Assembly (NCBI RefSeq): GCF_014645495.1
Contig: NZ_BMLV01000006.1
Location: forward strand, 131,298 to 195,297
Reading direction: 5' to 3'
Length of the DNA stretch: 64,000 bases
Origin: Cloacibacterium rupense
GTDB taxonomy: Bacteria > Bacteroidota > Bacteroidia > Flavobacteriales > Weeksellaceae
Position 1 is the first letter of the stretch, and every line of letters begins with the position of its first letter. Positions 42,364 through 47,066 of this stretch are shown piece by piece. A model generated the notes under the pieces. It did not search any database. It saw only the letters and a list, made by a program, of their open reading frames with translations, and was not told the origin of the DNA. The position numbers and the translations under genes are program-made.

Positions 42364-42500
42364 AGTGAAAAGAAGCAGGAGCAACTTTATAGCCCAGATT
42401 GAAATGAAAATCCTTTTATTGCGAGCAAAAAACTTGGGATTGCTTTGGATTTGCTCGCAATAAAAGATTGTAATGGAAAGCTGGACTGAGAGTGAAAAAT
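42364..42500. repeat. modular element, copy E
   Basis: AAGTGAAAAGAAGCAGGAGC leads into the left arm TAGCCCAGATTGAAATG and ATCCTTTT. The variable hairpin has arms ATTGCGAGCAAA and TTTGCTCGCAAT, and the right arm is AAAAGATTGTAATGGAAAGC, then TGGACTGAGAGTGAAAAAT. It lies between the PLP enzyme terminator and the next gene's -7 box. Confidence 0.85.
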
Positions 42501-42539
42501 AGAATTTTATGTCTTGCTTCTTATCAAAAATATAAAAAT

Positions 42540-42547
42540 TATCTTTG
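42540..42547 (+). promoter_or_regulatory. -7 box TATCTTTG of the esterase gene
   Basis: An exact TAnnTTTG match ends 4 bp before the ATG at 42552, so the transcript is probably leaderless. Confidence 0.65.
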
Positions 42548-42551
42548 CACT

Positions 42552-43187
42552 ATGGATTTAAAATTTATTGTAAGAGAACCCGAAAATATTACACCACAAA
42601 CTCAAATGTTGGTGATGCTACATGGATACGGAAGTAATGAGGAAGATTTATTCAGTTTCCGACATGATTTGCCTGAAGATTGGATTATTGTAAGCTTTAG
42701 AGCGCCAAATAATAGTGAATATGAGGGATTTTCTTGGTATAATATTGATTTCAACGATGCTGAAAAATTTATAGACGTAGAACAAGCGGTAGATTCTATG
42801 AAGCAAATTATGAGGTCTATTGACAACCTGAAACATCACTACAACCTAGAGACGAAGGTGAACATTATGGGGTTTTCTCAAGGTGGAGTTCTCACCTATG
42901 CCATGACGCTTACTTACCCTGAATATTTCAACAAAGTGGCTTGTTTGAGTGCTTACCCTGAACCTAAAATCTTAAAAAACATAAAAGGCAAGAAACAAAT
43001 TCAACACCTTAGATTTTTTATTTCGCACGGTAACGAAGATGCTGTAATCCCTTTAGAATGGGGAAGAAAAGCTGCTGATTTTTTGTATGAATTGGGTGCT
43101 TTTTTTAGTTTTAGAGAGTATATGACAGGACATAGCTTGAACCAAAAAAACTATATAGATTTAATCAAATTCTTCGAAAATAAATAA
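42552..43187 (+). CDS. phospholipase/carboxylesterase-family hydrolase
   Basis: A 211-residue alpha/beta hydrolase of the PF02230 type. The nucleophile elbow is MGFSQGGV, the acid is in HGNEDAVIP, and the His in GHSLN. The oxyanion region MLVMLHGYGSNEEDLF is near the N-terminus. An upstream ATG at 42492 in the same frame precedes the -7 box and is rejected. It cleaves carboxylic or thioester bonds; the substrate is unknown. Confidence 0.9.
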   Translation: MDLKFIVREPENITPQTQMLVMLHGYGSNEEDLFSFRHDLPEDWIIVSFRAPNNSEYEGFSWYNIDFNDAEKFIDVEQAVDSMKQIMRSIDNLKHHYNLETKVNIMGFSQGGVLTYAMTLTYPEYFNKVACLSAYPEPKILKNIKGKKQIQHLRFFISHGNEDAVIPLEWGRKAADFLYELGAFFSFREYMTGHSLNQKNYIDLIKFFENK

Positions 43188-43248
43188 AAAAGGGGAAAAT
43201 TTACACCTAAAACCTTATAAAAAGGCAAAATTTTAACATTTTCAAATG

Positions 43249-43255
43249 TACTTTG
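43249..43255 (+). promoter_or_regulatory. possible -7 box TACTTTG of the C1q-like trio
   Basis: TACTTTG matches the -7 consensus with one spacer base missing. It lies 36 bp upstream of the ATG at 43292. Confidence 0.35.
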
Positions 43256-43291
43256 GCGCGATTATTGATACGTAAAAGCAAAACACATTTG

Positions 43292-44044
43292 ATGAAGAAA
43301 AAAACTATTTTTTTTCTACTATTTCCGTTTATTACTACATTGGGAAACGCCCAAACTTATAACGGAAATGTAGGAATAAACACAGAAAACCCTACACAAA
43401 CACTAGATATAAACGGTGATGTAAAAGGAAGCAAATTAACCACAAACTACTCTAACCTTTCCTCTACAGGACTTGTAGTAATGGCAACCACAGATGGAAC
43501 ATTGAAATCTATCCCAAAAAACAAAATCTCCCCTCTAGTAACCGAAAACACTGGAACCATAATATCTACAGGTACAGAATATGTAGTAGCCCAAGAATTC
43601 AATATTGATATGTCTGCCGACCAGACGATTAATTCTACCACCCCTCAAGTTATCACCAACATGAACACTGAGGCTTTTGACAATATGGCACTTTATAACA
43701 ATGGTTCTTTTCAGGTGAATGCAGATGGAACTTATGTCATTGTTATCAGCGTACAAATAAGCGCAAACACAACACTTACCAACCCTTTTATAGGAGTACG
43801 AGACCTTACCAACAACACTTGGATTTGTGGCGTAAACGACAGCTTCACCGCATCTAATGGAAGCACCGGAAGCAAAACACAAAATTATTTCATTTACAGT
43901 GGCGTCGATTTAAAAAAAGGAACAAACTATGCCTTTGCCGCAAGAACAGCAAACTCATCCGAATCATTTACCATTAAAAAAGAAGCTACCGACTCCTCAG
44001 GAAACGGCCTAGTTTCATCTGTTACCTTAAGAAGATTAAAATAA
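43292..44044 (+). CDS. secreted C1q-like protein, tandem copy 1
   Basis: A 250-residue exported protein (signal ends near LGNAQ). The mature N-terminus has the repeated Flavobacteriia signature VGINTENPTQTLDINGDVKG, often found before trimerising regions of cell-surface proteins. It is followed by a beta-rich domain with the C1q/TNF-like pattern (NNGSFQVNADGTYVIVIS, FTIKKEATDSSGNG, ending VTLRRLK). An earlier TTG start at 43253 is unlikely because the signal peptide begins at MKKKTIFF. It forms an operon-like trio with the next two genes (gaps of 4 and 1 bp). Function unknown; adhesion or host/particle binding is possible. Confidence 0.82.
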   Translation: MKKKTIFFLLFPFITTLGNAQTYNGNVGINTENPTQTLDINGDVKGSKLTTNYSNLSSTGLVVMATTDGTLKSIPKNKISPLVTENTGTIISTGTEYVVAQEFNIDMSADQTINSTTPQVITNMNTEAFDNMALYNNGSFQVNADGTYVIVISVQISANTTLTNPFIGVRDLTNNTWICGVNDSFTASNGSTGSKTQNYFIYSGVDLKKGTNYAFAARTANSSESFTIKKEATDSSGNGLVSSVTLRRLK

Positions 44045-44048
44045 AACC

Positions 44049-44798
44049 ATGAAAAAATTTTTAACATTAGTTTTAATTGCAATTTTTTTTGCAGTTAAAG
44101 CTCAATACATTGGCATCAACAACCAAAACCCAACCGCTGCATTAGATGTAAATGGAGACATAAGAGTAAGAAGCCTAGAAACTTCAAGTTCATTCAGCAT
44201 TTATGATAATTTCGTACTTGCCGACAGCAACAATAAACTAAAAACAGTAAAATTCAGTGATTTGAATTTACCTCAAGTTTCAAAAGTAGGAACAGTAATG
44301 TCTGTAATCAATAGCAAACTAGACATTGCACCAGAAGTAGTGGTACAATCTACCGCAAACCAAACCACAGACGGAACCGGAACACCGAAAGTACTCAACA
44401 CCTTAAACAAAGAATTGGTAGACAATTACAACGCTTATTCTAATGGTGTATTTAACTGCCCTATCTCTGGAGTTTACATGATTATATTGTCTTTTCAAAC
44501 AACATCTAGCAATACATCAAATCACTCTGCCAATAACGTAATTGGCATCTGGAACGACTCTACCAACAAATGGGTAGCCAGAATCAATGACACCGATATG
44601 TCAATCAATACAACCAACAAGCTAAGAACATCTAAACTCCTCACCGCAATCAACATGACCGCTGGAACCAATTATTCCATAAGATTTATTGCAGGAGTTT
44701 CTGGCTCTACAACTAATACATTTACAGTTTTAGGAAACACCAATCTTATCACCACTCAAAATTCACCTTCCATCATTAGAATCATCAGAGTAAAATAA
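44049..44798 (+). CDS. secreted C1q-like protein, tandem copy 2
   Basis: A 249-residue paralogue of the gene before it: signal ending FAVKAQ, then IGINNQNPTAALDVNGDIRV, then a C1q-like domain (NGVFNCPISGVYMIILSF). Overall identity with its neighbours is moderate, so the duplication is old or under diversifying selection. The gap to copy 1 is 4 bp. Confidence 0.82.
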   Translation: MKKFLTLVLIAIFFAVKAQYIGINNQNPTAALDVNGDIRVRSLETSSSFSIYDNFVLADSNNKLKTVKFSDLNLPQVSKVGTVMSVINSKLDIAPEVVVQSTANQTTDGTGTPKVLNTLNKELVDNYNAYSNGVFNCPISGVYMIILSFQTTSSNTSNHSANNVIGIWNDSTNKWVARINDTDMSINTTNKLRTSKLLTAINMTAGTNYSIRFIAGVSGSTTNTFTVLGNTNLITTQNSPSIIRIIRVK

Positions 44799-44799
44799 C

Positions 44800-45546
44800 A
44801 TGAAAACATCATTATATATAATCATTGCTTTTCTTTCTATTCAAACAAAAGCTCAAACAAATCTTGGAATTAATACCACTTCACCAACATCAACTATAGA
44901 TATCAACGGCACAATGAGAGCTAGAAATCTCTCTACACCACAACCATACAACAGCAACGACCTATTGGTTTGGGCAGATGCCGGAGTTCTTAAAACCACC
45001 AACAAAGACAAAGTCTTCCCTACTGTTCCTATACAAACTGGGACATTAATGTCTGATGGAAATAATGTAATTGTAGCACCAGAATTTGAGGTTCAAATGA
45101 GCAATGACCAAAGTTTTACATCTTCTACTCCTTCCGTTATTAGCAATCTAAACGTAGAAATCCTTGACAATTTACAAGAAATTGGACTTTTTGGATTTCA
45201 AAACGGAACCTTCAAAGTAGACAATACCGGTTATTACTCTGTCTTTTTTAATCTACAAGTAAACAATACAACAAACAACAATCCTGTCTTTGGAATTTGG
45301 GATGATGCCGCCGGAAAATGGATTACTTCTACTAATGATTATTATTCAGCAATAATTACCGACCCTAATTATACTGCAGAAAGAATGCAATCATACACCA
45401 TTTACACCTCAGTAAAATTAGAAGCCAACAAAACCTACTCCGTGAGAGCAAAAACCAGCAGCGGAACCATTACAATCAAAAAACTAAGTTCTGGCTCTAC
45501 TGGAGAAGGCCCAGTAACGCAAATCGCTATCAGAAGAATCTCTTAA
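44800..45546 (+). CDS. secreted C1q-like protein, tandem copy 3
   Basis: A 248-residue third paralogue (signal ending QTKAQ), with LGINTTSPTSTIDINGTMRA and the C1q-like pattern NGTFKVDNTGYYSVFFNLQV. The start is 1 bp after the previous stop codon. The three genes end alike (I/VTLRRLK, IIRIIRVK, IAIRRIS), which marks the final strand of the domain. Confidence 0.82.
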   Translation: MKTSLYIIIAFLSIQTKAQTNLGINTTSPTSTIDINGTMRARNLSTPQPYNSNDLLVWADAGVLKTTNKDKVFPTVPIQTGTLMSDGNNVIVAPEFEVQMSNDQSFTSSTPSVISNLNVEILDNLQEIGLFGFQNGTFKVDNTGYYSVFFNLQVNNTTNNNPVFGIWDDAAGKWITSTNDYYSAIITDPNYTAERMQSYTIYTSVKLEANKTYSVRAKTSSGTITIKKLSSGSTGEGPVTQIAIRRIS

Positions 45547-45708
45547 AAAAGATAACTAATACAAAATCAAGCCTTAATATCATTTCCATTCTAAATTATG
45601 TTAAATTAAATAAAATTCTTAAAATTATTTTATGAAAAATAGTGAATTTAACATTTTATGGCTTGATTTTTGTATTCATTTATAAAGAAAAACACAAATG
45701 AAGAAAAA

Positions 45709-45743
45709 GAAATCCCTACTTCGATTGATCGAGTAGGGATTTC
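45709..45743. terminator. terminator between the C1q-like trio and aminopeptidase P
   Basis: Arms GAAATCCCTACT and AGTAGGGATTTC around an inner CGAT/ATCG pair, between convergent genes and followed by T residues on the plus strand. Confidence 0.88.
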
Positions 45744-45767
45744 GCTTTTTTATAAGAACTAAATTGA

Positions 45768-47066
45768 TTATGCATTCATTAGCTCTTCTATTTCTTCCAC
45801 TTCTATTGGAATGTTTTTCATTAGGTTAAATGCTGGCCCAGAATTTTGTATAACCATATCATCTTCTATTCTAATACCAAAACCTTCTGCTGGAAGATAA
45901 ATTCCGGGCTCTACAGTGAAAACCATATTTTCAACAAATTTATCCGAAAGAATTCCGTAATCGTGTGTATCTAATCCCATATGATGAGAGGTTCCATGCA
46001 TCATATATTTCTTGTAAGCAGGCCAATTTTTATCTTCATTCTGAACATCTGCTTTATCCAAAAGTCCTAATTCCAAAAATTTAGAAGTGTAAAAATCACC
46101 ACATTCTTTGTGGTAATCATACCAATTATTACCCGGAACTAAAAGCGAAGTCGCAAAGTTTTTCATATCCAAAACCGCATTGTAAATTTGCTTTTGTCTT
46201 TCGGTAAATTTTCCATTTACAGGGATGGTTCTGGTTAAATCACTAGAATAATTAGCATATTCTGCACCTACATCTAGCAAAATTAAATCACCATCTTTAC
46301 ACTGCATATTATTGGCGATATAATGGAGAACATTCGCATTATTACCACTTGCAATAATAGGCGTATATGCAAAACCTTTGCTTCTGTTTTTTATAAATTC
46401 GTGGATGAGTTCTGCCTCAATTTCATATTCCCAAACCCCTGGTTTTATGAAACTTAACAACCTTCTGATTCCTTTTTCAGTAATATTACACGCAATTTGC
46501 ATCAAGGCAATTTCCTCAGGTTCTTTCACACTTCTCAAATGCTGAAGAATAGGATTGCTTCTTAGAATTTTATGCAAAGGAAACTCTCTTTTTACTCTTT
46601 CTATAAATCTGTCTTCTCGTGTCTGAACCTCTAAAACAGCTCTGTAATGTTCATTTCTATTGAGATAAATATTTTCTGCTTCATTCATCAAATTATAGAA
46701 AATTCTATCAAAATCAGACAACCAAAAAACCGATTTTACACCAGAAACTTCGGTTGCTTTTTCTTTGGTCAGTTTTTCTCCTTCCCAAATAGCGATATGC
46801 TCATTGGTTTCTCTCAAAAAAAGAATCTCTCTATGCTCTTCTTTGTATGCATCTGGAAAAATCAAAAGAATACTTTCTTCCTGATCTACTCCACTCAAAT
46901 AAAAAATATCTCTATGCTGAGCAAAAGGCATCGTAGAATCTGAACTTACAGGGTAAATATCATTAGAATTAAAAATCGCCAAAGATTTTGACTGCATTTT
47001 TTCAGTGAATTTTTTACGATTTTTTACAAAAAGTGAACTCGAAATTTGTTCGTATTTAGTTGTCAT
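45768..47066 (-). CDS. pepP: aminopeptidase P family metallopeptidase (M24)
   Basis: A 432-residue pita-bread-fold peptidase that removes the N-terminal residue before proline. Metal ligands are visible: Asp in LLDVGAEY and SDLTRTIP, His in THHMG-type HGTSHHMGLDTHD, and Glu in TVEPGIYLP and IRIEDDM. The N-terminal AMP_N-type domain precedes it (DSTMPFAQHRDIFYLSG). Upstream it is divergent from an esterase across composite copy D. Confidence 0.93.
   Translation of the reverse strand: MTTKYEQISSSLFVKNRKKFTEKMQSKSLAIFNSNDIYPVSSDSTMPFAQHRDIFYLSGVDQEESILLIFPDAYKEEHREILFLRETNEHIAIWEGEKLTKEKATEVSGVKSVFWLSDFDRIFYNLMNEAENIYLNRNEHYRAVLEVQTREDRFIERVKREFPLHKILRSNPILQHLRSVKEPEEIALMQIACNITEKGIRRLLSFIKPGVWEYEIEAELIHEFIKNRSKGFAYTPIIASGNNANVLHYIANNMQCKDGDLILLDVGAEYANYSSDLTRTIPVNGKFTERQKQIYNAVLDMKNFATSLLVPGNNWYDYHKECGDFYTSKFLELGLLDKADVQNEDKNWPAYKKYMMHGTSHHMGLDTHDYGILSDKFVENMVFTVEPGIYLPAEGFGIRIEDDMVIQNSGPAFNLMKNIPIEVEEIEELMNA

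Follow-up and report, generated by a model that had tools for sequence, protein, structure and literature searches.

Three co-directional genes lie next to one another in the stretch of Cloacibacterium rupense DNA that we analyzed (64,000 nucleotides, hereafter the window), with gaps of only 4 bp between genes 1 and 2 and 1 bp between genes 2 and 3. The genes, their neighbors and the signals around them are as follows.

42492-43187: upstream neighbor, a carboxylesterase-type gene (PF02230)
43253..43269, + strand: candidate sigma-54 -24/-12-like site, 12/14 consensus positions, 22 bp before the first ATG
43292..44044, + strand: gene of protein 1, 250 aa (ORF call)
44049..44798, + strand: gene of protein 2, 249 aa (ORF call)
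44800..45546, + strand: gene of protein 3, 248 aa (ORF call)
45709..45753, + strand: terminator-like hairpin, followed by a T-run
45768-47066: downstream neighbor, a convergent aminopeptidase P gene (PF05195 and PF00557)

The ORF list offers an alternative TTG start for gene 1 at 43253; the ATG at 43292 was taken as the start because a 91%-identical relative begins there too. Protein 1 is 30% identical to protein 2 and 40% identical to protein 3, and eight signature residues (G28, I29, N30, P34, T35, D39, N41 and G42) are invariant across the three proteins. The genes are thus tightly packed, diverged paralogues, as a preliminary description of this DNA had stated. A search of the organism's own genome (G000, 3.17 Mb) with protein 1 at E≤10 returned three matches, and a three-row profile at E≤0.001 again returned three with no extra copy. 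The GC content of the trio is 36.4%, compared with 32.6% for the window. We infer that the trio is an operon-like, co-transcribed cassette.

The sigma-54-like site was scored against the -24/-12 consensus and also reaches 12/14 in the copy of UBA1937, and RpoN is encoded in the organism's own genome. The window copy reads TTGAT against the consensus TTGCW, without the C of the -12 element, and two other sites of equal score occur elsewhere in the window. We treat 43253-43269 only as a lead toward a possible sigma-54 promoter. A family-wide sigma-54 promoter was rejected, with 3 of 74 upstream regions (the window, the UBA1937 orthologue and G219) reaching ≥12/14. The hairpin lies between the trio and the convergent aminopeptidase P gene and folds as RNA with -25.3 kcal/mol (z -6.7); it was not listed by a consensus terminator scan.

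The three proteins have a common layout, given here with the segments of protein 3 in genome coordinates.

Protein 1: signal-like residues 1-20; stalk segment, about residues 21-85, with VGINTENPTQTLDING; C1q-like head, about residues 86-250
Protein 2: layout as in protein 1; its head is the most diverged of the trio
Protein 3: layout as in protein 1
44854..45066, + strand: protein 3, stalk segment containing LGINTTSPTSTIDING; modeled with low confidence and matched weakly by profile to bd2133 (MAT, see below) and MyRF
45067..45543, + strand: head of protein 3, predicted C1q/TNF fold; residues 72-230 of the model, best Z 14.8

Each N terminus reads as a signal-peptide-like stretch that ends in A-Q and has no lipobox Cys; judged from the sequence, all three proteins would be exported. 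No anchor or secretion signal besides this signal-like start was found in the trio, and no type IX sorting domain family was matched at E≤1 in Pfam or NCBIfam for the three proteins; the modeled head of protein 3 extends to its last residues. The signature (V/I/L)GIN(T/N)..PT..(L/I)D(I/V)NG sits in the short segment ahead of the beta domain; it belongs to this pre-head segment and is not a C1q feature.

A leave-out head profile, made from 17 sequences that all come from other genomes, matched protein 3 with E 1.4e-44, protein 1 with E 3.5e-37 and protein 2 with E 3.2e-31, and none of 900 shuffled controls (300 per protein) matched it at E≤10. Because the profile matches all three proteins and no shuffled copy, the homology of the heads is not due to chance. 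Together with the eight invariant residues, this result bears out the earlier claim that the trio has the GIN(T/N)..P signature and a C-terminal beta domain in common. Other family searches returned little: there was no Peptidase S74 family at E≤1 in the trio or in the 24 members of alignment A2, NCBIfam on the trio yielded just two families far under their cut-offs, and phmmer with protein 1 found six weak matches of mixed kind among PDB sequences, the best being a hydroxynitrile lyase (E 0.0069).

The fold of the head was predicted with AlphaFold2 on mature protein 3, guided by a 15-row alignment (A5). The monomer model has a mean pLDDT of 73.8 and a pTM of 0.65. From residue 71 onward, 10 of the 16 ten-residue blocks lie at 85–94 and the rest at 64–79, the weakest being 161–180 and 211–220; the blocks of residues 1–70, which form the stalk, lie at pLDDT 44–62. 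Prediction of protein 1 without an alignment gave a pLDDT of 40.6 and no usable model. Among the 50 Foldseek matches listed (E 2e-6 to 7e-5), TNF, C1q, TNF-like lectin and BclA-type domains dominate; chlamydial Pgp3 (several rows, the first included, with large rmsd) and one phage spike are also listed. In VIA-align the best match was the C1q domain of Caprin-2 (Z 14.8, 129 residues of a 132-residue chain, 2.2 Å), followed by C1QL2, EDA, C1q, F-BclA and phage spike or fiber domains. The Z score still stood at 12.6 for the 50th match listed; the narrow spread therefore indicates the C1q/TNF fold and picks out no single member of it. In a viral structure library, phage and giant-virus proteins with C1q or collagen-like in their names account for many of the top matches.

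In the trio, the Pfam families C1q and TNF match weakly, in agreement with the modeled fold: the C1q family (PF00386) matched protein 2 with 16.6 bits (E 0.0092), under the curated cut-off of 23.7, and did not list proteins 1 and 3. L037, which is more distantly related and has the same stalk motif, scored 23.8, just above that cut-off. Thus, the heads of the trio are predicted to have the C1q/TNF fold, protein 3 by its model and proteins 1 and 2 by homology. According to the preliminary description, a predicted structure without a C1q/TNF fold would have refuted the fold call; the monomer model of protein 3 has this fold, in a head that matches solved C1q domains. The earlier label “Eukaryote-type” is misleading, because bacterial and viral C1q-fold proteins are among the fold matches.

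The fold places the heads beside several known systems. The globular domains of C1QL, Caprin-2 and C1q A/B/C (PF00386) share it, but sequence identity in the C1q-family fold matches is 8–14%, and the trio has no collagen stalk and stays below the Pfam cut-off. The TNF-like bacterial lectins, the BC2L-C N-terminal domain and PLTL, match the modeled head in fold and are sugar-binding according to their entry titles; to our knowledge, they lack a fiber stalk. The Bacillus proteins BclA/F-BclA, BxpB and ExsF are, by their entry titles, bacterial C1q-like domains on a surface layer or fibrillum. Their presence among the fold matches, and a sub-threshold BclA_C match in relative L037, would fit proteins of a structural matrix or coat (BclA/ExsF-like caps), which would form a layer outside the cell and not bind a ligand. 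However, the trio has no Pfam Collagen match at E≤1, and its stalk motif and long-fiber relatives resemble adhesive fibers more; BclA itself differs from the trio in its collagen-repeat stalk and spore location. We consider the coat reading improbable. The C1q/TNF fold families matched here are trimeric. A literature search on flavobacterial C1q proteins and bacterial C1q trimers returned host, clinical and lectin papers, a Bacillus preprint and a Cthrc1 paper.

The stalk was compared with PDB sequences by means of a profile of 24 relatives. The matches were bd2133 (E 0.0079) and MyRF, the myelin regulatory factor (E 0.059), with further matches to 8ojn, a “cell wall surface anchor family protein” (E 0.26), and a terminase (E 0.43). 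bd2133, MyRF and 8ojn align to the profile on VGINT..P or VGVGT..P; for the best single stretch the independent E was 0.94 for bd2133 and 0.1 for MyRF, with none better than 0.1. Bd2133 and its kin have been named mosaic adhesive trimers (MAT), their capping-loop motif lies on a trimeric beta-helix, MyRF is a hit to this motif, and their tips are TNF-like, one of which binds GlcNAc (PMC10769870). The motif as printed there is V-G-G/N-pi-X-X-P-X-X-X-L (PMC10769870), one residue shorter between G and P than the trio motif (V/I/L)GIN(T/N)..P, which aligns weakly with bd2133 and MyRF.

The Bdellovibrio bacteriovorus MAT proteins (tips Bd2439 and Bd2734) resemble the trio in having an export signal, a loop motif of roughly the VGINT..P...L type, a C-terminal tip of TNF/C1q fold and relatives of varying fiber length, but they are about 1000 aa long, compared with about 250 aa in the trio (PMC10769870). 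Unlike MAT, the trio consists of tandem paralogues, and the two sets of tips are likened by fold, not by sequence homology; that MAT tips were not among the 50 fold matches listed carries no weight either way. The MAT report describes a beta-rich domain of ~130 aa right behind the signal peptide in 21/21 Bdellovibrio MATs (PMC10769870). There is room for about 65–70 residues between signal and head in the trio, and we do not claim MAT membership, because this N-terminal domain does not fit. By analogy, the trio proteins are probably trimeric, because the fold families that they match form trimers and their N-terminal motif is similar to one of trimeric fibers.

The stalk motif and the head are common to long fiber-like proteins. 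Among the loci examined, the motif is present in 59 of 67 head-bearing proteins (E 1e-40 or better), and the same head closes longer relatives of 509, 702, 825, 1172 and 1583 aa. The two longest are as follows.

L113:1292-6040: fiber-like protein of 1583 aa with a C1q-like head at its end and 12 GI(N/G)T..P motifs; no Pfam family at E≤1e-5
L114:1469-4984: fiber-like protein of 1172 aa with the same C1q-like head at its end

Neighboring genes at L045:1429-2756 and L046:3185-6785 carry the stalk motif and have no match to the trio-type head; in these genomes, tips may have been swapped on a shared stalk.

We also compared the distribution of the proteins and their genomic site. The three-row full-length profile matched 112 of 148 family genomes, with most of the listed matches covering the N-terminal part only. 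The head itself was found, at E 1e-8 or better, in at least 55 of 320 family genomes and at least 5 of 395 phylum genomes (3 of these 5 belong to the same family); these counts are lower bounds because a limited number of candidates was scored per genome. The distribution of the head in family and phylum is patchy. Within the genus, 2 of 7 genomes have the full trio, and a third has one short N-terminal match. A comparison of window positions 43188-45767 with the other five genus genomes (L076-L080) revealed that their carboxylesterase and aminopeptidase P genes are separated by about 40 bp, in which an inverted repeat lies. The trio is thus an accessory cassette at a fixed site, and both gain and loss fit this pattern.

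Where present, the trio is under strong purifying selection. Against the UBA1937 orthologues (L034), dN/dS of the whole genes was 0.059–0.063, with 0.023–0.048 for the heads and 0.10–0.15 for the first 85 residues; four flanking genes gave 0.028–0.081 in the same comparison. Because the synonymous distances are high (0.79, 1.36 and 0.78 for the whole genes of the trio), these ratios are rough.

The stalk motif is not confined to bacterial genomes, and the heads resemble viral C1q proteins, so that the trio could be read as the remnants of a prophage or tailocin tail-fiber set. On one viral contig, a 1651-aa protein that has collagen repeats carries the motif close to its end. In scans of viral contigs, at eight loci, every match lay inside the first 109 residues of the query; one further viral contig scan gave no match. 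In PHROGs it was mainly the N-terminal segment that was matched; the best matches were families without a known function, and a relative matched one tail-protein family (E 0.0006). However, the five flanking genes scanned encode enzymes (0/5 phage-like), protein 3 had no match in 50,697 phage records at E≤0.01, and the strong purifying selection on the trio also speaks against remnants. The N termini of the trio are signal-like, which is unexpected for tail fibers. A tail-fiber origin of this kind therefore seems highly improbable.

Exactly three tandem head genes were found in 8 of 320 family genomes (G000, G089, G015, G016, G231, G200, G208 and G255). Flavobacterium hercynium (L035) has a five-gene head array. 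G239 and G161 both have a pair plus a stalk-bearing gene without head match some 450–550 bp off; pairs are also found in G219, where the pair adjoins a contig end, and in G223, where the heads match more weakly. G212 has one intact head copy and a second, apparently frameshifted one (L089:5019-5754), and G226 has a second, weaker head at a distance of about 4 kb. A single head gene is present at most of the other loci examined; the loci examined comprise most strong head loci, apart from G269, G288 and the second G266 locus. The neighboring genes vary between arrays, and no partner common to them was seen among ten genes scanned near four other arrays and relatives, which were enolase, ribosomal L17, a 2Fe-2S thioredoxin-like protein, a POT transporter, thioredoxin, ACP synthase, a nitroreductase, a metallo-beta-lactamase-superfamily protein, a DUF11 protein and one gene without a family.

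In the trees, the copies of G015 and likewise those of G016, which represent two other genera, group by genome, each array's copies being mutual closest relatives, and this is the pattern expected of tandem duplication of a self-assembling homotrimer. The G231 copies fall into one small clade shared with G205 and G161. Orthology is 1:1:1 in two lineages, the window with UBA1937 and G200/G208/G255. The 24-row tree unites the F. hercynium copies in one clade, and the head-only tree, in which long branches meet at the window genes, does not; support for the window trio as one clade is 57/55. Approximately unbiased (AU) tests on groups named after the tree was seen rejected position-by-position common ancestry of the window with G016 (genes 1 and 3) and of window gene 1 with G015 gene 1 (p≤0.00097). 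A single ancestral trio was thus rejected for the pairs tested. Because shared ancestry by position is rejected, the three-gene arrays seem to have more than one origin, unless gene conversion clusters the copies by genome.

These data bear on the strongest rival to homotrimers, an obligate A-B-C heterotrimer in which tight spacing would set equal dosage; the preliminary description had suggested a hetero-oligomeric surface complex. Vertebrate C1q is a heterotrimer from three linked genes, and the trio, too, is a set of three linked genes. The 4- and 1-bp gaps, the eight genomes with exactly three tandem head genes, the seemingly separate formation of the arrays and the retention of each array member as its own orthologue in window/UBA1937 and G200/G208/G255 all favor it. 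However, single-head loci dominate, and pairs, the five-gene array and the array with an apparently frameshifted copy also occur; gene conversion inside arrays could likewise cluster copies by genome. The excess of three-gene arrays is not significant: 5 were counted against 2.4 expected under a geometric model (P about 0.1, hand-collapsed counts). Since single-gene versions are common, the obligate heterotrimer is disfavored, and we regard it as a tentative alternative. Rather doubtful, too, is the broader proposal that C1q-tipped single-gene homotrimers repeatedly became three-gene A-B-C heterotrimers, paralleling vertebrate C1q; if it were true, one complex would show three different faces.

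Taken together, we favor the reading, with a probability of roughly 0.55, that the trio is an accessory cassette of short exported trimeric binding proteins with C1q tips and a MAT-like stalk. Each chain would consist of a signal peptide, a short fiber-type stalk with GIN(T/N)..P and a C-terminal tip of C1q/TNF fold. After export, three chains would assemble via stalk and head, probably as three copies of one chain, and the trimers may be located at the cell surface. The diverged tips would then provide three specificities. Their most likely targets are carbohydrates or other ligands on surfaces; MAT tips and TNF-like lectins, taken as analogues, would point to a surface sugar. Homotrimers with three specificities are the simplest reading because single-gene versions are common.

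With the trio, the trimeric fibers with C1q tips would gain a compact flavobacterial version, and a role is suggested for the GIN-T-P motif, which is widespread in this bacterial family. With one-, two-, three- and five-gene loci coexisting in related species, the recurrent triplets offer a natural test of the passage from homotrimer to heterotrimer.
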